Positions 1-11,441 of a stretch of 49,564 nucleotides of DNA are shown piece after piece. The stretch is taken from NCBI RefSeq assembly GCF_010692555.1, contig NZ_JAAHHG010000028.1, forward strand, positions 4,432 to 53,995, given 5' to 3'. The notes below the pieces were generated by a model. The model worked only from the letters and a program-made list of their open reading frames with translations. It was not told the origin of the DNA and searched no databases. Made by a program: the position numbers and the translations under genes. Source of the DNA: Okeania sp. SIO3B5 (lineage in GTDB: Bacteria > Cyanobacteriota > Cyanobacteriia > Cyanobacteriales > Microcoleaceae). Positions within the stretch are counted from its first letter, which is position 1; each line of letters opens with the position of its first letter.

Positions 1-420
1 CTAATTTCATTAAAGCATTAGCATAACTATTAATAGTTAGAACATTATCAGGTTTCAGTTGTAGAGATTTTTCAAATAAAGGCAACGTTTCTTCAACTCT
101 TCCTAATTTCATTAAAGCATTAGCATAACTACGAATAGTTAGAACATTATCAGGTTTCAGTTGTAGAGATTTTTCAAATAAAGGCAACGTTTCTTCAACT
201 CTTCCTAATTTCATTAAAGCATTAGCATAACTACGAATAGTTAGAACATTATCAGGTTTCAGTTGTAGAGATTTTTCAAATAAAGGTAATGTTTCTTCAA
301 CTCTTCCTAATTTCATTAAAGCAGTAGTATAACCATAAATAGTTAGAACATTATCAGGTTCGAGTTGTAGAGCTTTTTCAAATAAAGGTAATGCTTCTTC
401 TACTCTATCTAATTCCATGA
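1..420 (-). repeat. 102-nt tandem repeats encoding identical TPR units
   Basis: Within the TPR part of the ATPase gene the DNA repeats with a period of 102 nt (34 codons). At least three units are almost base-identical and the units nearer the start of the array (300-420) have diverged. Such near identity at the DNA level points to recent unit duplication or gene conversion. The array continues past the left edge. Confidence 0.85.
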
Positions 421-1957
421 AAGCACTAGCATATTTATTAATATTTAGAACATTATTAAGTCTCATCCGACGTTTAATTCCACCTTTGCGTTGAACTTCA
501 AAACCATATCTATAAATATCAGGCATATTAATTCGCCGATCTGAGCGACGAATTTCCACAATGCCTAATTCTTCTAAGTATTTTAAAATTTCTTGAGGTT
601 TTCTAGAAGGAGGTTCTTGATTCCATTCTGTATTTTCTAGTATCTTGAGAAAGTTTTCTTCCTCAGTTAAAAGATTGAGATTTTTAAGACCTATTTTAAG
701 AGCTTCTAACCAGGGATATTCTTCCACTGTAAGTTCTTTTATTCGATCTTTAGAAGTACCCATTAAAGCTACTTGTAAATCAGAAGGTTCTAATAAACGA
801 TTTTCTGGTAAATCCTTTTCCTCAAATTTTTTCAATCTACGTTCTGCTGCTAAAGAGAATAACTTTAAAAAAGAACGAGGAACAATTCTCCTTTTAGCAT
901 CTTGAAGGTGATTAGGAATCCATTTATAAGTGTAACTTTCTTGAGCATTATCTCCCATCCATTCCCCAACTATTTTTTCCATTAATAATTCAAAACAAGA
1001 CTCATCTAATGCTGGCAATATACCCAATATTTCATCCTTTTTTGAAATTAAACCAGGAACTATTTGTAAATAATCATTCATTTCTGATCCAGAGTTAGCC
1101 AAACGCTTCACAAATACCTGATATAACCATGAAGTTTCCCACTCTAAACTAACTTGATATCCTCTGAATTTAGAAGCATCTGGAAATCCTAAAAATTCCT
1201 GTCGAAATAAATCTGTGCGTAGAAATATTTTGGGTCTAATTCGTTCCCAACGACGCCATCTATCTAGCCAAAATGCTAATAGTTCGGCGATAGAATTAGC
1301 AAGTTCTAAATAAGAAGGAACTACTCGCTCCAGCTCATCATAAGTGATAAATAACCAGCGATCGCTTGCCAATAATTCCTCATCTAATTTATCCAAAGCA
1401 TAATTGATACTTTCAAAATTCTGACGAGCATCTGGAAACCAATGGGAAATTAATGATAATTTGTTAGTTAAACTATCACGAGTTTCCTCTGGTATTTCCT
1501 CAACCCAACTATGATTTGATAATTCTTTTTCTTGCTGAAATATTACTCCTACTATCAATCCTGCCCAGAAAATCCGCCAATCAATTCTATCCTTGTATTT
1601 CATGTAGTTTTCTGTGATATCTGGTGCAGGAAATTTTTTTTCCCTAGTTTTAGTACGACCATATCCAGAAATCCAGATTGTTGTTTCTAAAGGGGGTAAA
1701 CCTCTAATATTTAAGTTTTTTACTAAAGCTTGGCGACCAGCATAATTTGCTAATAAACGAAAAAATTCTGTTTTACCAGCACCTCTTTCACCTAATATTA
1801 AAAGTGTGTCAACTTCCAAAGCCATTCGGTGGCTAGGTAAAGGTAAAAAATTTTTGAGGAATATATTTTCATCATTACTTTCATGTTCCGCTACACCTCT
1901 TCCTGGTGCAATATTAGCCATAATTTCTAATAGCTTTTTTTTATTAAAGTTAGTCAT
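1..1957 (-). CDS. P-loop ATPase with C-terminal TPR repeats (3' end beyond window)
   Basis: My own translation of the minus strand gives an open frame from ATG at 1957 to the window edge, so the C-terminus is missing. A ribosome-binding site (TAGGA) lies just upstream. Residues ~54-62 read GERGAGKT, a Walker A loop, and ~195-205 contain FITYDELERV, a plausible Walker B. About 300 residues of mostly helical, unassigned sequence follow. From about residue 500 there are tetratricopeptide units of 34 residues (A-L-M-K-L-G-R-V-E-E pattern). It resembles the cyanobacterial P-loop ATPases of the Sll1717 kind (family recall, not searched). The gene starts 14 nt after the KGGVGR ATPase gene and is surely co-transcribed with it. 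The fusion of a NTPase with TPRs suggests a sensor or scaffold in a STAND-like or conflict system; that function is inference. Confidence 0.8.
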   Translation of the reverse strand, partial: MTNFNKKKLLEIMANIAPGRGVAEHESNDENIFLKNFLPLPSHRMALEVDTLLILGERGAGKTEFFRLLANYAGRQALVKNLNIRGLPPLETTIWISGYGRTKTREKKFPAPDITENYMKYKDRIDWRIFWAGLIVGVIFQQEKELSNHSWVEEIPEETRDSLTNKLSLISHWFPDARQNFESINYALDKLDEELLASDRWLFITYDELERVVPSYLELANSIAELLAFWLDRWRRWERIRPKIFLRTDLFRQEFLGFPDASKFRGYQVSLEWETSWLYQVFVKRLANSGSEMNDYLQIVPGLISKKDEILGILPALDESCFELLMEKIVGEWMGDNAQESYTYKWIPNHLQDAKRRIVPRSFLKLFSLAAERRLKKFEEKDLPENRLLEPSDLQVALMGTSKDRIKELTVEEYPWLEALKIGLKNLNLLTEEENFLKILENTEWNQEPPSRKPQEILKYLEELGIVEIRRSDRRINMPDIYRYGFEVQRKGGIKRRMRLNNVLNINKYASAFMELDRVEEALPLFEKALQLEPDNVLTIYGYTTALMKLGRVEETLPLFEKSLQLKPDNVLTIRSYANALMKLGRVEETLPLFEKSLQLKPDNVLTIRSYANALMKLGRVEETLPLFEKSLQLKPDNVLTINSYANALMKL

Positions 1958-1971
1958 TTTCCTACCAAATT

Positions 1972-3339
1972 TTATTTATTTAATTTACGCTTAAAAATAG
2001 TGCAAAGTCTTTCAGCAAGTTGCTGATAAGGTTTACCTGTTAAAACATCAATAAGATATGACAAACGACTATCTTCCTCCGGAGTAGAATCTCGCTTAAA
2101 TAAACTTACTTCTCTACGCAACTCACTTTGCCAATTTATAATTATTGGGTAAAAACTAGCTTCTCTATCATCGGGTTTAGGAACATCTTCCCTATAGTAA
2201 TGCTCTTGAAAAACAATGTAAGCTTTCTCTCGAAAAGCTCCAAGTTCCTGTTCTGCCCATTTTACATCTAATCCCGGAGCTAAAGCATGGACGAGTAAAA
2301 CTGGCAGCGGTTCAGGAGCTAAAGGTCTTGCTAGACGACGAATAACATGAGTTAAACCTTTCCAACTTTGACGAGATTGAGTGCCAAAAATGACTGCTGC
2401 ATGGGATAAGTCAGCGATCGCCAGTCCACCAAGATCGTGAAACCCGGTTCTGGTATCTAGCAAAATAAAGTCTAACTTTCCCACTGCATTAAGTTCTTTG
2501 AACAAATTTTGCCAGGTTTCTGGCAGTTGATTATTAGCGTTGAGCAAATTTTGAAAATCTAGTCTTGCCAACTTTTCCAGATAGTTATCATCCACGCTAC
2601 CAGCTCCCAGCAAACTCAGACTCTCTCCGGTATCTCCCAACAATTTCTGCTCGTTGACTAATTTCAAATGAGTGCGGAGTTTCCAGTTTTTACTCTGGAT
2701 ATTTTTCTCTAACAAATAATCGATCACCCCAGGAATGCTCTCCTCTGATGCAGAGGAGAAAACAGTCGATAGACCAGGAGATTCTAAATCTAAATCGACT
2801 ATAGCTATACGATGACCATGACGAGCCAATGTCAGAGCCGTTGCTACTAATGTTGTTGTACGACCAACTCCACCCTTAAAGGAAAAAAATGAAACTATTG
2901 CTGGTTTGTGCCCTTCATCTACCACTTTCTGCGACCAAGGAGGCTGACCTACATTTTTATTTGTCCATGCTTGCTTCGCTACATGACGCTCTAACACATA
3001 CCAATGAGGTTTATTTCCATCATCCCATTCTGCCAAAACCCTTTCTTGACAGATGACATCAATCAAGGCTTTATAACCATCTTTTTCGCCCTGTGGTAGC
3101 CAAATATCTTCGCCATAGTAGTTGCCAAGTGTTTTCCTCAGCGAGTTTTCTAGGTCATTTAGGATATCATCTTCTAGCTTACTGTTATTTAAAGGTTCCA
3201 GAAAAATCCTAATTTTCCCCACAACATCCCGAATTATAGTTATGGATTCTAGATTTTGTGTTAGTTTGTCTTTTATAGGAGATTCCGCAAAACATTCCCG
3301 CACTTTTTCAAATGTTGCACTGAAAGTTATATCAATCAT
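1972..3339 (-). CDS. KGGVGR-motif ParA/MinD-like ATPase
   Basis: A 455-residue protein. Residues 152-163 read FSFKGGVGRTTT, the deviant Walker A of the ParA/MinD/CobQ ATPases but with R in place of the usual K (KGGVGKTT), which defines the KGGVGR-motif variant. IAIVDLDLESPGL follows (the A' region, with D residues) and FILLDTRTGFHD is the Walker B-like strand. The N-terminal ~145 residues have no recognised domain. Known relatives are soluble nucleotide-dependent switches; the KGGVGR class is often found beside conflict genes, but its target is unknown. Start codon chosen because it abuts the HEPN stop codon (TAGATG) with a G-rich binding site just before it. It sits in a four-gene minus-strand array and probably works with the HEPN protein and the TPR ATPase. 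Confidence 0.85.
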   Translation of the reverse strand: MIDITFSATFEKVRECFAESPIKDKLTQNLESITIIRDVVGKIRIFLEPLNNSKLEDDILNDLENSLRKTLGNYYGEDIWLPQGEKDGYKALIDVICQERVLAEWDDGNKPHWYVLERHVAKQAWTNKNVGQPPWSQKVVDEGHKPAIVSFFSFKGGVGRTTTLVATALTLARHGHRIAIVDLDLESPGLSTVFSSASEESIPGVIDYLLEKNIQSKNWKLRTHLKLVNEQKLLGDTGESLSLLGAGSVDDNYLEKLARLDFQNLLNANNQLPETWQNLFKELNAVGKLDFILLDTRTGFHDLGGLAIADLSHAAVIFGTQSRQSWKGLTHVIRRLARPLAPEPLPVLLVHALAPGLDVKWAEQELGAFREKAYIVFQEHYYREDVPKPDDREASFYPIIINWQSELRREVSLFKRDSTPEEDSRLSYLIDVLTGKPYQQLAERLCTIFKRKLNK

Positions 3340-3765
3340 CTAAATTTCCCCACTGGAAATTCTGCCATCCAAAATTAATCTAGGAATAATCTCATTATAG
3401 ATTTTTCCAGCTCGTTTAACTGCCTCTATTGCTTGACTTTCACACCATAAGTCTGACTTGGCATAGCGTCGCTCTGGATGATCGTCCGCTAAGACTGTCC
3501 CGTTTGTACGCGAAATTGGTAGTTGAGTATCAAGAATGGGATACATTACCCGTAACCTCTCAACAGCTTTGCCTTGAAGTTCTGTTAAATCATGGCCGAA
3601 TTTGCTACAAGCTTGATTTTTAATATATTGCTCTACTATAACTTTAAAAGCACATTCTACTACATAAGCTGCCAAATAAACCGCATTATCCCAACGATGC
3701 TGACTCAGCAAAATTTCTGCATCATGTAAATGCCTCCCCGCAGCTTGAATAAATGATTCTTCCAT
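3340..3765 (-). CDS. HEPN domain protein
   Basis: A 141-residue, mostly helical protein. The segment AAGRHLHDAEILLSQHRWDN followed by AVYLAAYVVECAFKVIVEQY, and later FGHDLTEL, matches the HEPN pattern (small helical domain; H-W-D/N-A and GHDL signatures). HEPN proteins include RNases of toxin-antitoxin and abortive-infection systems, but many are inactive binding partners. I do not see a clear R-x(4-6)-H catalytic motif, so RNase activity is uncertain. Its start lies 3 nt after the stop of the GTP cyclohydrolase II gene, and its stop touches the start of the KGGVGR ATPase, so translation of the three genes is likely coupled. A minimal nucleotidyltransferase partner (MNT), the commonest HEPN mate, is not present; the two ATPases take that place. 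Confidence 0.8.
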   Translation of the reverse strand: MEESFIQAAGRHLHDAEILLSQHRWDNAVYLAAYVVECAFKVIVEQYIKNQACSKFGHDLTELQGKAVERLRVMYPILDTQLPISRTNGTVLADDHPERRYAKSDLWCESQAIEAVKRAGKIYNEIIPRLILDGRISSGEI

Positions 3766-3768
3766 GGT

Positions 3769-5016
3769 TTACTCAGTTAAATTTCTCCCTTTTATACTTG
3801 ACAAAACATTCTCATCCGGCACCTCCCCATCTGTATAATAACCCGCCGCTTTCTTCGCTGCAATTTCCACCTGCGCATCCTCTGGCACCAAATCATCAGG
3901 AATAGGCACTCGCTCCACTATCTCAATACCAGAATTAACAATAGCGTTATATTTCATATCGCTCATCGACACCAAACGGTCAATTTTACTCACACCCAAC
4001 CAATGCAAAACATCTGGCATCATTTCCTGAAACCGCATATCTTGCACCCCTGCCACACATTCAGTCCGAGCAAAATAAGCATCTGCGCGATCGCCTCCTT
4101 CCTGTCTTTTCCGAGCGTTATAAACCAAAAATTTAGTCACCTCTCCTAACGCTCTCCCCTCTTTACGGAAATAAACTATCACACCCACTCCCCCCTCCTG
4201 CGCTGTCTGAATACAAACCTCAATACCATGTACCAAATAGGGGCGACAAGTACAAATATCAGAACCGAAAACATCCGAACCATTACACTCATCGTGAACT
4301 CTGACTGCCAATTTTTTTGTGGAGTCGGCAACATCAGCAACATTTCCCACTATATATACTGTCGTACCACCAATAGGAGGCAAAAATAAATGTAAATCTG
4401 GGCGCGTTACCAACTCTGGGAACATTCCACCCATTTGTTGAAACAACACCCGACGCAAGTCACTTTCTTCCACATTGAGTCGTTTAGCAATTCCTGGCAA
4501 ATGCCAAACTGGGTCGATCGCTGCTTTTGTTACCAATAAATTACCATTATCTTTAACAATATTGCCATCAACTTTCAATACACCCCTAGCAACAGCATCC
4601 TGTAATTCTGGCATATTAATATTTGCCTTTGTAATAGCAATAGTAGGTCGGATATCGTATCCTTTTTCATAGTAAGATGCAAATACTTCTTCCACCACCG
4701 CCCCCCAAGGATCGAGACAGACAATTTTATCGGGGTCATACCAACTCGGATGAGGCCCAATATGTGCTGCCGGAGAAGTATTTGTTAAATCAGCACGGTG
4801 ATTTGATTGTAGTTTACCAGAAGCGATCGCCAAAGCACGATAAACGGCATAAGAACCGGAGTGAGTACCAATAACATTACGATGGTTAGGATTACTCAAA
4901 GACCCGATCGCAGGTCCCCGCTCTATGGGGTTTTGAGCGCCCCACTGCACGGGAATTGGTTTTTTGTCCGCAGGACCAGGATGGGATGTTAATACAATAT
5001 GCTTATGCTTTGCCAT
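3769..5016 (-). CDS. long-form GTP cyclohydrolase II (Urc1-like)
   Basis: A 415-residue protein with an N-terminal domain of about 200 residues, then a RibA-type GTP cyclohydrolase II domain. The three zinc cysteines are visible at C244, C255 and C257 with the same spacing as E. coli RibA (11 and 2), and YFRKEGRALGEVTKF corresponds to the RibA LRQEGRGIGL loop, though altered. There is a C-terminal tail that RibA lacks. This architecture (extra N-domain, C-tail) is that of the Urc1 family, which acts in a uracil-degradation route in fungi and bacteria; classical RibA makes the first riboflavin intermediate from GTP. A Urc4 (DUF1688) partner is not in the window. The close coupling to HEPN and ATPase genes downstream is unusual. 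The family is certain, the pathway is inference. Confidence 0.85.
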   Translation of the reverse strand: MAKHKHIVLTSHPGPADKKPIPVQWGAQNPIERGPAIGSLSNPNHRNVIGTHSGSYAVYRALAIASGKLQSNHRADLTNTSPAAHIGPHPSWYDPDKIVCLDPWGAVVEEVFASYYEKGYDIRPTIAITKANINMPELQDAVARGVLKVDGNIVKDNGNLLVTKAAIDPVWHLPGIAKRLNVEESDLRRVLFQQMGGMFPELVTRPDLHLFLPPIGGTTVYIVGNVADVADSTKKLAVRVHDECNGSDVFGSDICTCRPYLVHGIEVCIQTAQEGGVGVIVYFRKEGRALGEVTKFLVYNARKRQEGGDRADAYFARTECVAGVQDMRFQEMMPDVLHWLGVSKIDRLVSMSDMKYNAIVNSGIEIVERVPIPDDLVPEDAQVEIAAKKAAGYYTDGEVPDENVLSSIKGRNLTE

Positions 5017-5403
5017 TTTTTCTTAACTTTGAGATAATAATTATATTATTTGTTTTGATGAAAATAAGCATAGCATAATTCAACAAAAAACAACTTAAAG
5101 CAAATTTAGCATTGCGAAAATAATGTGAAATTTATCATATAACTATCACAAATATAGTATAATCTTCTATAATTAAAATGAACATTTATATGGTCATATA
5201 ATGTAACTCCTTAGATTAGTATTCAAATATCTGAATATTAGTCCTAAGTATTCAGCCGTTAGCTATCAGCTACTGATAACTTTTAACTAATAACTGAAAA
5301 AGCTATCAGCTACTGAAAACTAATAACTGAAAACTGATAACTGTTAACTAATAACTAAAAAAGCTATCAGCCACTGAAAACTGTTAACTAATAACTGAAA
5401 AAA
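5017..5403. other. divergent spacer with 7-base repeat tracts
   Basis: The space between the minus-strand cyclohydrolase operon and the plus-strand binding-protein gene. 5020-5220 is A/T-rich and should hold both promoters, but no convincing -35/-10 pair or riboswitch was found; in particular I see no FMN-riboswitch-like fold. 5250-5400 is filled with repeated AGCTATCAGCTACTGA and AACTAATAACTGAAA units, largely with a seven-base period. The start codon of the next gene follows directly after this repeat and lacks a good ribosome-binding site. Confidence 0.5.
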
Positions 5404-6420
5404 ATGAATTATATTAATCGTCGTCAATTTCTTCAATATAGTAGCCTCGCTATTAGTACCAGCATATTAACAAGTTGTGCTACTCCTGATAACTCCAATT
5501 CTACTGCTAAAAATAACAAAAATCTTGACAAAGTAACCTATGGAACTAATTGGTATGCTCAAGCCGAACATGGAGGATTTTATCAAGCAATTGCTACAGG
5601 TATTTATGAAGATTATGGATTAGATGTTACTATTAAAATGGGCAATGCTCAAGTGAATGGAACTCAGTTATTAGTAGGAGGTGCAATCGATTTTTATATG
5701 GGGTCTAGTATAGAGGCAATTAATTCTGTACAAACAGGAATTCCTACTATTACAATTGCAGCTATTTTTCAAAAAGATCCCCAAGTATTAATTGCTCATC
5801 CAGGAACAGGAAATGACTCTTTAGAACAACTCAAAGGTAAACCTATTTTGATATCTTCTTTGGCTGATAAAGGCTATTGGCAATTTCTTAAAGCTAAGTT
5901 TGGTTATACAGACGACCAGAAACGTCCTTACAACTTTAGTGTAGCTCCATTTTTATTAGATAAAAACTCAATTCAACAAGGTTATCTGACATCTGAACCT
6001 TTCACAATTCAGAAAAAAGGAGGCTTTGAACCTGTAGTTATGTTATTAGCAGATGCTGGTTATAAACCTTATGCTACTACTATAGAAACAACAACAAAAA
6101 TGGTAGAAGAAAATCCCGATCTAGTGCAGAGATTTGTCGATGCTTCAATTAAAGGTTGGTATAGTTATTTAGAAAATCCTGAACCAGCTAATCAATTAAT
6201 TAAAAAAGATAATCCAGAAATGACAGATGAGTTATTAGCTTATAGCTTAGAAAAAATGAAAGAATATGGCATTATTACTTCTGGAGATGCTGTAACAAAA
6301 GGTATTGGTGCAATGACTGATGAACGGTGGAAATCATTCTTTGATACTGTTGTAGAAGCTGGAGCAATTAAGCCAGATACGAATTATAAAGAAGCTTTTA
6401 CTTTACAATTTATTAATTAG
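5404..6420 (+). CDS. ABC transporter substrate-binding protein, NMT1/ThiY-SsuA type, Tat lipoprotein
   Basis: A 338-residue periplasmic binding protein. The N-terminus has a twin-arginine-like motif (NRRQFL) and a lipobox (LTSC, cysteine about residue 25), so it is probably exported folded and anchored as a lipoprotein. The mature part begins with KVTYGTNWYAQAEHGGFYQA, the strand-loop typical of NMT1/THI5-like binding proteins, which bind pyrimidines, sulfonates, taurine or riboflavin-like ligands. No permease or ATPase gene lies beside it, so it is an orphan here. It is divergent from the Urc1-like gene, which would fit a pyrimidine or related ligand, but this link is only inference. A run of repeats abuts the start codon. 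Confidence 0.8.
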   Translation: MNYINRRQFLQYSSLAISTSILTSCATPDNSNSTAKNNKNLDKVTYGTNWYAQAEHGGFYQAIATGIYEDYGLDVTIKMGNAQVNGTQLLVGGAIDFYMGSSIEAINSVQTGIPTITIAAIFQKDPQVLIAHPGTGNDSLEQLKGKPILISSLADKGYWQFLKAKFGYTDDQKRPYNFSVAPFLLDKNSIQQGYLTSEPFTIQKKGGFEPVVMLLADAGYKPYATTIETTTKMVEENPDLVQRFVDASIKGWYSYLENPEPANQLIKKDNPEMTDELLAYSLEKMKEYGIITSGDAVTKGIGAMTDERWKSFFDTVVEAGAIKPDTNYKEAFTLQFIN

Positions 6421-6488
6421 GAAGTAATTAATAATTAATAATTAATAATTAATAATTAATAATTACCTCTTCTTAGAAAAGGTAGTTC

Positions 6489-6682
6489 GTAAGCATTCAG
6501 CTATTAGCAATAAGATCTTGTGCTTAAGGACGAGATTTAAATGAATATAGACTTTGGAGCTGACTTTAGCCAAATTTTTCTAGCTTAATTCAATATTGCT
6601 TTTATCACTCACTAAAAGCAATAGCTGTTAACGCAGTTCCGACCATAGGAGGCTAGCTGATAGCTGACGGCTGAATGCTTAC
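6489..6682. mobile_element. MITE, GTAAGCATTCAGC family, copy 1
   Basis: Non-coding element with ends GTAAGCATTCAGC and GCTGAATGCTTAC in inverted orientation. The 8-bp flanks are GGTAGTTC on the left and GGTAATTC on the right (7 of 8 match), as expected of a target duplication. The ends carry seven-base AGCTATN repeats. Related copies lie at 36279, 36616 and 44974, and end fragments near 8450 and 38525. Confidence 0.75.
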
Positions 6683-6774
6683 GGTAATTCTAAATTCTGA
6701 ATTCTAAATTCTAAATTATTGAAGATTCCTGATATAATATAAATTAGCCAACAAAATTACGCAAGAGGAAAATT

Positions 6775-7347
6775 ATGTCTATTAATCTCAGCAAAGGTGA
6801 AAGAGTAAATCTTTCCAAAGAATCTCCCAATTTGAAACAAGCAGGTATTGGCTTGGGATGGGATGTAAATACTACAGACACAGGGTCAGAATTTGACTTA
6901 GATGCTTCTGTATTTATGTTAGGAGCTAATGGAAAAATTCCAGCAGAAAAATACTTTGTTTTCTACAATAATCTCGTCTCACCAGATAGTTCTGTCAAAC
7001 ATTCAGGAGATAGTAGAACAGGAGAAGGTTCTGGAGATGATGAACTAATAGAAATTGATTTAACAAAAGTAGATGAAGCCATTCAAGAAATAGTATTTGT
7101 AGTGACTATCCATGAAGCAGATGCCAGAAGACAAAACTTTGGACAAGTTAGAAATTCTTTTATTAGAATCTATGATATTACCACTGAAGAAGAAGTAGCT
7201 AAATATGAATTAGAAGAAGATTTTTCACGAGAAACAGCTCTGGAATTTGGCAGACTTTATCGCAAAAATAATGATTGGAGATTCCAAGCTGTCGGACAAG
7301 GTTATAATTCAGGTTTACAAGGATTTGTTGATAAATATGCCTCTTAA
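6775..7347 (+). CDS. TerD family protein
   Basis: A 190-residue protein with all the TerD/CABP marks: MSINLSKGERVNLSK at the start, IGLGWDVN, FDLDASVFML, the acidic SGDDELIEIDL calcium-binding stretch, and FVVTIHEADARRQNFGQV. Length is the family's usual. TerD domains bind calcium and occur in tellurite-resistance and stress or phage-inhibition gene sets, where they pair with vWA and other Ter proteins at the membrane. A ribosome-binding site (AGAGGA) precedes the ATG. The vWA gene follows 196 nt later on the same strand, consistent with a small Ter module. Other ter genes (terC, terB) are not in the window. Confidence 0.93.
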   Translation: MSINLSKGERVNLSKESPNLKQAGIGLGWDVNTTDTGSEFDLDASVFMLGANGKIPAEKYFVFYNNLVSPDSSVKHSGDSRTGEGSGDDELIEIDLTKVDEAIQEIVFVVTIHEADARRQNFGQVRNSFIRIYDITTEEEVAKYELEEDFSRETALEFGRLYRKNNDWRFQAVGQGYNSGLQGFVDKYAS

Positions 7348-7543
7348 ATCAGCTAATATTATTAGTGCAGGATGGCAGAAATAACTAACCAGTTACAAAA
7401 TCCTAAAAGCTTTAACAATCAATATTTTTGACTTTTTACTTTTGACTTTTAACTTCCGCGTAGCGGCACTAGAATAATTTAGGACTTTGGCAATCAATGA
7501 AGAATATTTTTTTATTTAATCAAATTTAATCAGGTAAAAAATT

Positions 7544-8323
7544 ATGCCCATATCTCTCGAAAAAATTGAAAGAGATGCTCCCAGATTAATCGATCTTGCT
7601 AAAAAAGCAGATATTTCAATCCTCAAAGCAAATCTAACAAATCATCAGGCTAAAGTTGCACTTTGTCTAGATATTTCTGGCTCGATGTCCTTCCTTTATT
7701 CATCTGGTAAAATTCAAACTTTAGCAGAAAAAATATTAGCTCTAGGGTGTCGGTTCGATGATAACGGTTCTATAGACATTTTTCTGTTTGGACAAAATCC
7801 TCATCAGGTAGGAGAAATGACTTTAGGTAACTTTCAAGATTTTATTCCTAACATAGAACAAGAACATCCTCTAGAAACAGGAACTTATTATGGCAAAGTC
7901 ATGAAAATGATTAGAAATTTCTATTTTCCAGAGGGAAATGGTGATAGTAGAAATTCTCCTTTTACTGCAGATGAACCCATTTATGTAATGTTTGTCACTG
8001 ATGGTGCAACTTCTGATGAAGAGGAAACACAAAACCAGTTAAAATGGTCGTCTTTTGAGCCAATTTTTTGGCAGTTTATGGCTATTGGTAAGCCACGGAA
8101 AGATGTTTCAGGAGAAGGACTTTCGGGTTTTGTTGGTAAAGCATTAGCTACTGATTTTAGCTTTCTGGAAAAACTTGATGAAATGAAGGGTTATACTGAC
8201 AATGCAGCTTTCTTTAATGTAGAAGATCCAGAAAGTATTTCCGATGACGAGCTTTACGATATATTAATGGAGGAATATCCTTCTTGGGTAAAGTTTGCTT
8301 ATTCTAAACAGTTACTCAAATAG
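7544..8323 (+). CDS. vWA domain protein, TerF/TerY-like
   Basis: A 259-residue protein. ALCLDISGSMS at about residues 38-50 is a MIDAS metal-ion site (D-x-S-x-S), and YVMFVTDGATSDEE carries the later conserved acidic residue of the von Willebrand A fold. The first ~30 residues (ERDAPRLIDLAKKADISI) match the lead-in seen in vWA proteins of ter gene clusters. With the TerD gene upstream it makes a minimal TerD-vWA pair, likely a peripheral membrane or stress-signalling complex; the ligand is unknown. Confidence 0.88.
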   Translation: MPISLEKIERDAPRLIDLAKKADISILKANLTNHQAKVALCLDISGSMSFLYSSGKIQTLAEKILALGCRFDDNGSIDIFLFGQNPHQVGEMTLGNFQDFIPNIEQEHPLETGTYYGKVMKMIRNFYFPEGNGDSRNSPFTADEPIYVMFVTDGATSDEEETQNQLKWSSFEPIFWQFMAIGKPRKDVSGEGLSGFVGKALATDFSFLEKLDEMKGYTDNAAFFNVEDPESISDDELYDILMEEYPSWVKFAYSKQLLK

Positions 8324-8381
8324 AAAATTTTGATTTTTAGTTAAATAGAACTTACGCAAATTCATCTTTAAAACGCCATCT

Positions 8382-8407
8382 GTAGGGGCGAATGGCATTC
8401 GCCCTCA
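8382..8407. repeat. dispersed palindrome (GTAGGGGCGAAT type)
   Basis: GTAGGGGCGAAT and its near-complement ATTCGCCCTCAC form a hairpin. Similar palindromes lie at 18711-18761 (long loop), 23893-23917 (inside a coding region) and 32791-32818, so this is a dispersed REP-like repeat. Confidence 0.7.
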
Positions 8408-8486
8408 CTGGATTCAGTATCAGTCCGTTCCTGGAGTTAATAAATCATAGCTGATAGCTGATAGTTGACGGCTGAGTGCTTACTCA

Positions 8487-8757
8487 CTAACTAACGGCAA
8501 ATTCAGTTAAACTACGTTTATATGGGGCATGAAATCCTAAGACAATATCTTTTTTAGGAACCCCAGCAGCTATCAATTGATTAGCAATTCCGATTTCTGT
8601 TCCATCTCTTTGAATCCATATTTTATTATCTTTTAAGTCAACATGAATAATCACACCATAGATTATTTTTTGTTCTTTCCAGCCTATATTTAAAACTTGA
8701 TAATGATGGCGTTTTGTATCAAAGAGAAGTTTAATTTCTGTGTTACTTTTTCCATTG
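8487..8757 (-). pseudogene. xisI: xisI fragment (3' part only)
   Basis: Minus-strand frame open for about 90 codons ending DIVLGFHAPYKRSLTEFAVS, the XisI C-terminus. The first ~20 codons are missing: at 8757 homology to the second copy (10577 onward) stops and unrelated sequence containing TTTGCGCAGCATTCCGCAGG begins. About 95 percent of bases match the second copy by eye. XisI is a control factor for excision of the fdxN element in Nostoc, but homologues are widespread in cyanobacteria without that element. Immediately downstream sits an end fragment of the GTAAGCATTCAGC element (8450-8483). Confidence 0.8.
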
Positions 8758-8802
8758 TTTGCGCAGCATTCCGCAGGAAATGCTTACCTTTCAAAAGACT
8801 AG

Positions 8803-8940
8803 CTATTTCCGAAAGTCTAAAAACCCCCACTTGATTATTTCTTGATTGCCAGCTTCAATCCATGAATTTAGACGATAGTTCATTTTGTCAAAAAACTCCT
8901 GAGTCCATACATTCCGCTCTTCGTTTTGTATTTCTTTCAT
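8803..8940 (-). pseudogene. short unassigned reading frame, possibly a gene fragment
   Basis: A 45-codon frame beginning MKEIQNEERNVWTQEFFDKM and ending WGFLDFRK. Composition looks protein-like, but I recognise no family and it ends beside the broken xisI copy. It may be the start of a displaced gene. Low certainty. Confidence 0.25.
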
Positions 8941-8966
8941 TGTGGCAAGTAATCGCGAATAATTTA

Positions 8967-9159
8967 TACCAATTAAAAAAAAGAATGTTACGAATAATCA
9001 GGGCAATTAAAATACTTTATAGGAGATGTTTTTTGGACTAAAAAGATAAATTTAGCCCTAAAAACTGCTATTAAAGCCATTATTATGACTCCTGACTCCT
9101 GAGTTCTGAATCCTAAGAAATATCCTAACTATTTGTAGCCAACATTTATCAATTTGGTA
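8967..9159. mobile_element. MITE, TACCAATT family, copy 1
   Basis: Begins TACCAATT and ends AATTTGGTA, with a shared inner sequence AAAAAGAATGTTACGAATAA on the left and CTAACTATTTGTAGC on the right; the same arrangement recurs at 47361-47555. The middle contains a seven-base tandem repeat (GACTCCT). No coding potential. Confidence 0.65.
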
Positions 9160-9309
9160 TTATAGCTATATTCTCAGACATATCGAGCCACCTACTAATA
9201 CTGGGAAATTTAATAGACTTAGTAATGGAATTTTTTTTGTGATAAGTATCACTGCTGTTGTTAACTAAATTAATCTAAAATTTTGAGGTAATTTTAGATT
9301 CAATCAAAT

Positions 9310-10485
9310 ATGTTAACCAACGCATCTTTAATCAAAATAGGTTCTGGTTGGGAATTTGTCAGTGAAGAAATTTTAGAGGATTTTCTTTATGAAAATTTGG
9401 AAAAATTACTCGGTTTAAATGTCTTAGACAGACAATATATTGTTAATAATCAAAGATGCGATATTTTGGCAGTCGATAGTCATAAAAAATTAGTAGTTTT
9501 AGAATTAAAAAATGTGGAGGATAGGGGAATAGTTCAACAGTTGACTCGTTATTATGATGCTTTATTAGGCGAGCAACCTTTTAGTGAGAAAGTAGATTAT
9601 CAGCAACCTGTAAGATTAATAGCAATTACTCCTAATTTTCATCGAGATAATTTTACAGATAGAACATATCATACTCTTGATTTTCAGTTTCTAGAGTTTT
9701 CTGTGATTGAAAATGAGGATAAGTTTTATCTCAGTTTGAAAGATGTCGATAATGGGAAGATTTCAAAGACAATTATTCCATATCAAGAATTAGAAAATGA
9801 TTTATATTTACCTACTCCACCTACAGCACTTTTGAAACTTGTAAATAATTGTGATGATCAACGGCAAGAAGAGATTTTTAGGATTCGACAGAAAATTTTG
9901 GGGTTTAATCCTAAAATTCAGGAATTTGCTTCTGCTGGCAGTATTAAATACGGAAGTGGTAGTGGCAAAAGTAGTAAATTTTGTGCTGAATTTTGTTCTT
10001 ATAAAGATGAAATAATATTGTTTCTTTGGCTGCCATATAAAGGTGGTGAAAGTTCAAGAATTGGTAGAGCAAGAATTTGGACAGATTGGCAAGATCAAGC
10101 TTTGATTGAAGGTTATGTTTCAAAAGGAATAGGAACAAAAATAAATAAGCATAAAAAGAGTATGCAAAAATTAATAGAAGCAATTGAAACAGAAGGAGAT
10201 TGCTGCAAAGTAACATTCACTGAGAATAAAATTGTTAAGGGTAGATATAGTTTACCAATCAAACCAACTATGCTCAATAAATATTTTCAGGTAGTCAATA
10301 GAATTCTTAGTGATTACGAACACGCAAAACTTTTAACATACGAAGATGTAGAGTTATTTAAGCATTATAAAAAAATGTCCAAAGAAAGAATGGGAAAAGA
10401 ATTAAATTCAAAAGTTTTAGATTATTACAAATCTCTAGACTCATTAATTGACCTAGTATTAGAAAAATGGTTAGCAAGACTTTGA
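9310..10485 (+). CDS. NucS-like (DUF91) PD-(D/E)XK endonuclease-domain protein
   Basis: A 391-residue protein. Residues ~15-115 hold a PD-(D/E)XK core: the strand RCDILAVDSHKKLVVLELKN gives D..(E-x-K), followed by an alpha-helix with QLTRYYDAL, the pattern of the NucS/RecB-like archaeal-type endonuclease domain. The remaining ~270 residues, including a lysine-rich central block, have no assigned fold and probably bind nucleic acid or a partner. No methylase is nearby, so it is either an orphan nuclease or a defence component. It lies between two direct ~270-bp copies of the xisI 3' part, which suggests arrival or loss by recombination. The ribosome-binding site is weak. Confidence 0.75.
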   Translation: MLTNASLIKIGSGWEFVSEEILEDFLYENLEKLLGLNVLDRQYIVNNQRCDILAVDSHKKLVVLELKNVEDRGIVQQLTRYYDALLGEQPFSEKVDYQQPVRLIAITPNFHRDNFTDRTYHTLDFQFLEFSVIENEDKFYLSLKDVDNGKISKTIIPYQELENDLYLPTPPTALLKLVNNCDDQRQEEIFRIRQKILGFNPKIQEFASAGSIKYGSGSGKSSKFCAEFCSYKDEIILFLWLPYKGGESSRIGRARIWTDWQDQALIEGYVSKGIGTKINKHKKSMQKLIEAIETEGDCCKVTFTENKIVKGRYSLPIKPTMLNKYFQVVNRILSDYEHAKLLTYEDVELFKHYKKMSKERMGKELNSKVLDYYKSLDSLIDLVLEKWLARL

Positions 10486-10576
10486 ATATAACTACAATTC
10501 AATCTGATAAAAAAAATATTTAGCTTTAAGAAAAACATCCTGCATATACAAATCCCGATACCTAAATTAATCATTA

Positions 10577-11037
10577 CTAACTAACAGCAAATTCGGTTAA
10601 ACTACGTTTATATGGAGCATGAAATCCTAAGACAATATCTTTTTTAGGAACCCCAGCAGCTATCAATTGATTAGCAATCCCGATTTCTGTTCCATCTCTT
10701 TGAATCCAAATTTTATTATCTTTTAAGTCAACATGAATAATCACACCATAGATTCTTTTTTGTTCTTTCCAGCCAATATTTAAGACTTGGTAATGATGAC
10801 GTTTTGTATCAAAGAGAAGTTGAATTTCTGTACTATTTTTTCCATCATTAACTGAATGTTCGGTGAGAATATTTTGGATAAGTTGAGAGTAATATCATGT
10901 CCGGATAATTAGTGATAAAAAACTTTCTCCTTCTTTTCTTCTTTCTTCCCTCCTGAATTCTGAATTGCAGAATTGCTGAATTCTGAGTGTTTATTTATAA
11001 CTGTTCAACCGGACATGATATAATCTATTCTTTCCAT
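10577..11037 (-). pseudogene. xisI: xisI, interrupted by a 126-bp MITE
   Basis: The frame starts MERIDY at 11037, overlapping the end of xisH, and is broken after six codons by an inserted element (10894-11019). After the insert it resumes YSQLIQNILTEHS and runs to TEFAVS and a stop. Removing the insert and one copy of a 2-bp AT duplication leaves 333 nt, or 110 residues, the normal XisI length, with the frame intact. The insertion is therefore recent and the protein was whole before it. XisI works with XisH in fdxN-element excision control in Nostoc; the wider role is unknown. Confidence 0.88.
10894..11019. mobile_element. MITE, ATCATGTCCGG family, inserted in xisI
   Basis: 126 bp with perfect inverted ends ATCATGTCCGG / CCGGACATGAT, flanked on both sides by AT, the probable target duplication. 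The inside has seven-base-like TGAATTC repeats. A second, left-truncated copy is at 19060-19160 and a diverged relative at 22119-22221. No reading frame. Confidence 0.85.
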
Positions 11038-11441
11038 AACACGACTTCCTGTTTAATATAATCAAAAATTAAAAGTTTAATTTGATATTCTGCCACAGAA
11101 TCTTGAATAAATTGACGAGAAAAGAAATCTTCATAAGTATCTTGAGGAATTGCCAAGTAGAGGATTCTTTCTGGTTATTCCTGTTTTAAGGCTAACCGAT
11201 AATTGAGAATTTGCCCTAAAGCAAGATGAAATTCTGTGACTTCTGATGCTCTTAAGAAAGATTTAATTTCTATGGCGATTTTTTGACCTGCTTTTTCGGC
11301 TGCAATTAATCTTTCTGCGCCTAGATATATGTAAAATTCTACATCATTTACTTTCAGATAAAGCGGATCGTTAGTAATCTTCCAGCCATCTTTTTCAATG
11401 GCGATACAAACTGATTGATGAAATATATCTTTGGCTGACAC
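11025..11441 (-). pseudogene. xisH: xisH with a premature stop codon
   Basis: The minus strand encodes a full-length XisH (138 codons): MSAKDIFHQSVCIAIEKDGW, LGAERLIAAEKAGQKIAIEIKSF, LALGQILNYRLAL, then after an in-frame TAA (11175-11177) PERILYLAIPQDTYEDFFSR and on to VVLWKE. XisH has a restriction-endonuclease-like core (E-I-K-S-F is visible). A single base change would explain the stop, giving an 88-residue product truncated after that core. Start codon is GTG. Its last codons overlap the xisI start, the usual xisH-xisI operon arrangement. Confidence 0.88.

Follow-up and report, generated by a model that had tools for sequence, protein, structure and literature searches.

Do the four closely packed genes at one end of a stretch of Okeania sp. 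SIO3B5 DNA form a single system, or have separate units come to lie behind one another? The stretch, hereafter the window, comprises 49,564 nucleotides (bases 4432-53995 of contig C201, NZ_JAAHHG010000028.1, in an 11.06-Mb genome), and the four open reading frames (ORFs) lie on its minus strand at 3769-5016, 3340-3765, 1972-3339 and 2-1957, with intergenic gaps of 3, 0 and 14 nt. A preliminary description, made from the letters alone, had read them as a gene for a Urc1-like GTP cyclohydrolase II followed by HEPN, KGGVGR ATPase and tetratricopeptide repeat (TPR)-ATPase genes on the same strand, and the ORF coordinates agree with this arrangement. The array is not one system: it consists of urc1, a triad of genes, and the front of a separate two-gene system. 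With a probability of about 0.7, we read the locus as a composite of a catabolic urc1, a triad of the PDC-M28 type, and a pair encoding a TPR-kinase and a receiver (REC)-AlbA_2 protein, which is fused here to the last gene of the triad.

The triad is made up of a HEPN gene, a KGGVGR ATPase gene and an AAA+ ATPase gene, and it exists independently of urc1. Gene 2 encodes a HEPN protein of 141 amino acids (aa; PF05168, 27.9 bits for a cut-off of 22), and gene 3 a KGGVGR-variant ParA/MinD-like ATPase of 455 aa (NF047398 AAA_KGGVGR, 183.1 bits for a cut-off of 90), with KGGVGRT at residue 155. The native extent of gene 4 (458-1957) corresponds to an AAA+ ATPase module of about 500 aa, a P-loop ATPase of the Sll1717 family (NF047389, 97.8 bits for a cut-off of 75), besides which the ORF carries TPRs. 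The identities first given to the cyclohydrolase, HEPN and KGGVGR genes hold, all three matches being over their cut-offs. On the other hand, the suggestion that the triad could be an undescribed system does not stand, because PADLOC-DB 2.0.0 contains it as PDC-M28, an already catalogued candidate defence system. The three adjacent genes match the A, B and C profiles in the same order, B (8.2e-61, residues 4-421) and C (1.3e-73, residues 24-497) near full length. The locus differs from this description in two respects: the HEPN protein matches the A profile (9.1e-12) over residues 1-49 of 141 only, and C in Okeania sp. SIO3B5 carries the TPR-kinase fusion. A longer PDC-M28A match (residues 1-117) is seen in the HEPN protein of the Deltaproteobacteria locus L088, and the A, B and C profiles also match distant hosts. 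In the available sections of PMC12988326 (2026, on archaeal defence), PDCs are treated as putative, unvalidated systems, and a preprint is cited as their source. A literature search that did not cover bioRxiv found no paper naming KGGVGR, none naming PDC-M28 among the top-ranked matches, none on Sll1717, and none on a HEPN protein with a MinD-like ATPase in anti-phage action; the HEPN-ParA-AAA+ triad was not found in the available sections of PMC7159879 either.

The neighbourhood of the KGGVGR ATPase was then compared across genomes, as the preliminary description had proposed. In a set of 59 genomes (that of Okeania sp. SIO3B5 and 58 others), a full-length KGGVGR protein is present in ten, and the HEPN, KGGVGR and ATPase genes stand in this order in all ten (our genome and 9/9 relatives), the HEPN protein of relative G003 having lost its N-terminus. 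A scan of a genome collection for the KGGVGR protein gave 44 loci, 31 of which cover all or most of its length; nine of these 31 belong to the same relatives as in the 59-genome set. The HEPN-B-C order is kept in 30 of the 31, the exception being L077, where the contig begins inside B. The HEPN and AAA+ ATPase genes thus do accompany the KGGVGR gene, but the cyclohydrolase gene or a remnant of it is found in only 4/31 loci. Damaged triad copies occur at L062, L065 and L087, and the copy at L089 is truncated by the end of its contig. The hosts are mostly cyanobacteria, and also include Alicyclobacillus and Tumebacillus (Bacillota) as well as Deltaproteobacteria, Planctomycetota and Myxococcaceae metagenome-assembled genomes. 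The spread is patchy: six of the 388 genomes sampled within the class have the triad, our own included.

The partnership of B and C is supported by natural B-C fusions. At L043:2716-5406, one protein of 896 aa matches PDC-M28B and then PDC-M28C, with a PDC-M28A-like gene upstream. Furthermore, among 17 short loci where KGGVGR is matched more weakly, the C half lies in the same frame in seven (one of them, L033, being the L043 locus) and a HEPN-profile match lies just upstream in six, both counts being minima since the flanks are short. The L043 stretch (G014:C152:74000-93900) carries, about 2 kb apart, a HEPN and fused B-C dyad (2716-5875) and an unfused triad (8028-11347).

How might such a triad work? 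The predicted model of B (predicted local distance difference test score, pLDDT, 78.4) has a fold that matches Soj/ParA and MinD. That of C (pLDDT 89.6) ranks the BrxC protein of BREX (9zll, E 1.1e-5) and the ORC/Cdc6 initiators (archaeal ORC2, 1w5t, E 1.4e-5) first, but with TM-scores by query length of only about 0.3-0.4. At E 0.01, no PADLOC match to a BREX component profile is listed for the four window proteins, and a sequence search of solved structures gave weak, unconvincing matches only for the AAA+ protein and for the HEPN protein. In the latter, the E-X3-[KR] motif is present, E37 and K41 being invariant across nine aligned sequences. The R-X4-6-H RNase motif is not conserved, as no pair of alignment columns carries it in over 3 of the 27 full-length copies, and RNase action is therefore uncertain. 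H58 and R99/R100 are invariant in the nine sequences and would be candidates for an alternative site of the AF0298 type. According to the available sections of PMC3710099, some PF05168-type HEPN proteins that lack the motif histidine carry another conserved histidine.

From the predicted folds of B and C, the HEPN motif pattern and the proposal made in PMC3710099 for a HEPN protein paired with a ParA/Soj-like ATPase, we tentatively infer, as its likeliest function, that the triad may work as an ATP-gated HEPN module. Its two ATPases, one ParA-like and the other an ORC/BrxC-like AAA+ protein, would form a single ATP-dependent complex, which would restrain or position the small HEPN protein. An infection-related shift in nucleic acid or nucleotide state would free the HEPN protein, which could then cut RNA or stop growth otherwise. 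It is in this conditional sense that we speak of a trigger, a HEPN activity and an anti-phage effect of the candidate triad.

The same proposal suggests a different function, in which the HEPN protein as toxin and the ParA-like ATPase as antitoxin would form a toxin-antitoxin-like pair, accompanied by an additional ATPase and kept selfishly and not for defence. As far as the available sections of PMC3710099 go, a HEPN protein of the MAE_18760 family and a ParA/Soj-like ATPase are proposed there as a toxin-antitoxin dyad. The HEPN gene adjoins a ParA/Soj-like SIMIBI ATPase gene in both cases, and here it lies directly upstream of that for the KGGVGR ATPase. However, the MAE_18760 protein belongs to a different HEPN family, in which the motif is kept, whereas the triad HEPN is of the PF05168 type without R-X4-6-H; moreover, no AAA+ partner is named in those sections, and the triad has its third, AAA+ gene. 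Indeed, C accompanies A and B in 31/31 loci (one of them cut off), and in some lineages B and C form one protein. We consider this selfish pair a possible reading, although on the unlikely side.

Returning to the composite locus, its third component enters through gene 4. The ATPase gene appears in the assembled DNA as joined in frame to a TPR-histidine-kinase gene at positions 456-466 (minus strand). The earlier label "TPR-ATPase" was right in that an NF047389 ATPase is followed in frame by TPRs; the TPRs, however, are a local fusion. In 9/9 relatives, the ATPase stops after 498-503 aa and has no TPRs, which led us to reject a TPR stretch native to this roughly 500-aa protein. Our DNA is collinear with the triad alleles up to position 466 and with the TPR-kinase gene of relative G016 from about 456-461. 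The longest exact matches at the joint to any of the seven compared stretches are of about 7-10 nt, and because no long word is shared a simple assembly-graph error at this point is unlikely. The TPR stretch of the fused protein (2-457, minus strand) continues past the window; the window edge comes after a 10-N assembly gap located inside the TPRs, and gene 4 is therefore incomplete in the window. Past the gap, the contig encodes further TPRs ending in HATPase_c (L003:2304-4406), then a Response_reg-DUF5678-SLFN_AlbA_2 regulator (L003:1203-2264) and a 222-aa ORF.

Relative G016 has a urc1 remnant and, after it, genes for a stand-alone TPR-kinase of 1042 aa, a REC-AlbA_2 protein and a homologue of the 222-aa ORF. 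The TPR-HATPase and REC-DUF5678-AlbA_2 genes are adjacent in 9/9 genomes where they are found (L003:1203-4406, L052:3065-7291). In G001 and G004, it is the triad that follows urc1. The slot ends with ORF200, a convergent reading frame some 200 aa long: it comes after the triad in G001, G003, G004 and G025 and, in G016, after the kinase pair. Since urc1 is followed by the triad in some genomes and by the kinase pair in others, a single slot after urc1 seems to take either cassette; here it holds both, fused.

The kinase and regulator genes might by themselves form a two-component defence system. In defence systems of the Detocs type, a TPR-bearing protein resembling a histidine kinase is followed by a receiver-domain protein. 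The Okeania pair likewise consists of a TPR-bearing kinase-like protein and then a receiver-domain protein, but its output domain is SLFN_AlbA_2. Searched against PADLOC, the pair gave weak matches only, with no Detocs match listed at E 0.01, and the literature search returned no matching paper.

Does the fused protein work as such? It could be a functional chimera of ATPase, TPRs and histidine kinase, in which sensing of the PDC-M28 type would feed a phosphorelay that ends at the REC-AlbA_2 protein. The joint is in frame, the sequence is continuous there and the shared word is short; furthermore, the adjacent pair has a ratio of nonsynonymous to synonymous rates (w) of 0.36 against G016. Nevertheless, the fusion occurs in one of the five genomes of the genus, a whole-genome search of the other four Okeania genomes having found no second copy. 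Part of the N-terminus of the TPR-kinase is missing in comparison with G016 (by the longest alignment, the repeats blurring the exact extent), and the joint is about 0.46 kb away from the 10-N gap. A working chimera is thus doubtful in our view. The more specific idea that two neighbouring conflict systems have merged, so that sensing by the triad ATPase would drive the phosphorelay to a REC-AlbA_2 effector and give a PDC-M28-type system with two-component output, appears slightly more doubtful still. The ATPase-TPR-kinase fusion, known from a single genome, is unusual.

The first component of the composite locus, urc1, is a uracil/pyrimidine-catabolism gene with URC4 as its partner, and a bystander to the triad. 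Its 415-aa product matches over its full length NF005536/PRK07198 (755.6 bits for a cut-off of 403), which we take to be Urc1 of the URC uracil-catabolism pathway. It contains the PF12471 and PF00925 domains, and the nearest solved chains are 7ej3/7eev (624 bits). In the 59 genomes, 25 have intact urc1 and intact URC4 (DUF1688), none has urc1 only, one (G035) URC4 only and 33 neither (Fisher p 8.6e-16, kinship uncorrected). The URC4 of G008 is split into two pieces, each in an open frame of its own on one contig; it was counted as present here, and scoring it as broken gives p = 2.8e-14. For intact urc1 and the triad, the corresponding numbers are 4 with both, 21 with urc1 only, 6 with the triad only and 28 with neither (p = 1, kinship again uncorrected). 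Among the 25 genomes that have urc1 intact, 16 carry the two catabolic genes within 5 kb of each other on the same strand, and seven, our own among them, carry them on different contigs. In G001 and G004 the triad separates the two genes, and the distance grows to 11-16 kb. UPRT is near in one relative, G019, where urc1 comes first and a Guanylate_cyc-domain gene, URC4 and UPRT follow in turn. This Guanylate_cyc-domain gene occupies 5744-6826 of locus L054, and ORFs that look similar by eye follow urc1 in G022 and G014; a link of cyclic nucleotide monophosphates to uracil catabolism is possible.

Decay of urc1 is frequent where the triad is present: only a broken or fragmentary urc1 remains in 6 of the 10 triad genomes, versus 1 of the 49 others (G016). 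In the seven relatives concerned (G010, G025, G016, G003, G014, G032 and G035), URC4 is damaged or not found in six. As for those that have the triad, URC4 is damaged in G003, G014, G032 and G025, absent from G010 and open in G035. We did not accept that the presence of the triad causes this decay, since three of the six genomes belong to one genus and URC4 is damaged or absent in most of them as well. The loss of urc1 in triad genomes would reflect shared descent together with loss of the pathway rather than an effect of the triad.

These observations bear on the idea, raised in the preliminary description, that the four genes form one system, the HEPN protein and the ATPases being controlled by a nucleotide signal that the cyclohydrolase produces or removes. 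The common strand, the gap of only 3 nt between urc1 and the HEPN gene and the strong purifying selection on urc1 (w 0.06-0.08) speak for it, as does the recurrence of the urc1-triad order in two further species (L060, L061). But intact urc1 adjoins the triad in these two scan loci only, and a remnant in two more (L063, L064). All four belong to Okeania or Trichodesmium, and in the loci examined urc1 stands beside the triad in this group alone. Neither gene nor remnant was found there in the remaining 27 of 31 loci; among these, upstream sequence is missing for L071 and L077 and limited to 0.9-1.4 kb for L065, L079 and L088. Moreover, the triad is kept where urc1 has decayed, and urc1 follows URC4 and not the triad. 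Finally, the numbers of synonymous substitutions per synonymous site (dS) disagree: between our genome and G001 they are 0.244 for urc1, 0.057 for HEPN, 0.059 for KGGVGR and 0.214 for the ATPase, and between ours and G004 they are 0.195, 0.653, 0.424 and 0.261, respectively. As urc1 and the triad differ in dS at the same site, the triad has a separate history. The quartet was therefore rejected as one system, and a signal made or removed by the enzyme for the triad is very improbable; the other option offered at the outset, a three-gene defence-like cassette that has settled behind a pyrimidine-catabolism gene, fits well with a triad that is conserved without urc1. A chance neighbourhood with no system behind it is compatible with the urc1-triad link beyond the Okeania/Trichodesmium group but with nothing in genes 2-4, whose order in 30/31 loci across several phyla refutes it for the triad, so that we give it practically no weight.

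Several observations weigh against the composite reading. Among them are the partial PDC-M28A match and the missing RNase motif of the HEPN protein, and a fusion known from one genome with an assembly gap nearby. In G002, which lacks the KGGVGR gene of the triad, an intact urc1 is followed by a stop-ridden TPR remnant; ORF200 was not found in the stretches of G000, G002 and G010 examined. The search for B gave no match among 50,697 phage records and two among 72,556 plasmid records, and the case for mobility therefore rests on the patchy distribution and the differing dS. The surroundings point to a defence-rich setting as a rough sign: 137 ORFs in the flanks of triad loci match 100 PADLOC families versus 22 families for 116 control ORFs (E 1e-10), a comparison that counts families and not genes, with overlapping PADLOC models and unmatched sets. 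The flank scan covered 137 of 161 candidate ORFs; 28 of the 31 loci were of sufficient length, and 26 of these contributed (L061, L071 and a few single ORFs being omitted). The controls came from stretches elsewhere in ten genomes that carry B. An oligonucleotide cyclase and endonuclease effector, NsnA and PD-T4-2_A are among the flank families listed (25 of 100), while Cas12f-like, Csx1 and mad3 families occur in flanks and controls alike.

On the other side of urc1, the window carries at 5404-8323 a gene for an NMT1-type substrate-binding protein, which diverges from urc1, then genes for a TerD-domain and a vWA-TerF-like protein. The first two of these genes recur at the same position in G001 (where the binding protein is broken up), G002, G003, G004, G010 and G016. 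Further on, an ORF at 9310-10485 contains a nuclease domain similar to the C-terminal part of NucS (PF01939, 28 bits).

In conclusion, our analysis does away with a misleading lead, that of a nucleotide enzyme belonging to a defence system. The PDC-M28 candidate is strengthened by evidence not found in the literature searched, namely a gene order kept over several phyla, a natural fusion of its ATPases, and predicted folds of the ORC/BrxC and ParA types. In Okeania and Trichodesmium, the slot after urc1 would be a place where alternative cassettes swap and, once, fuse.

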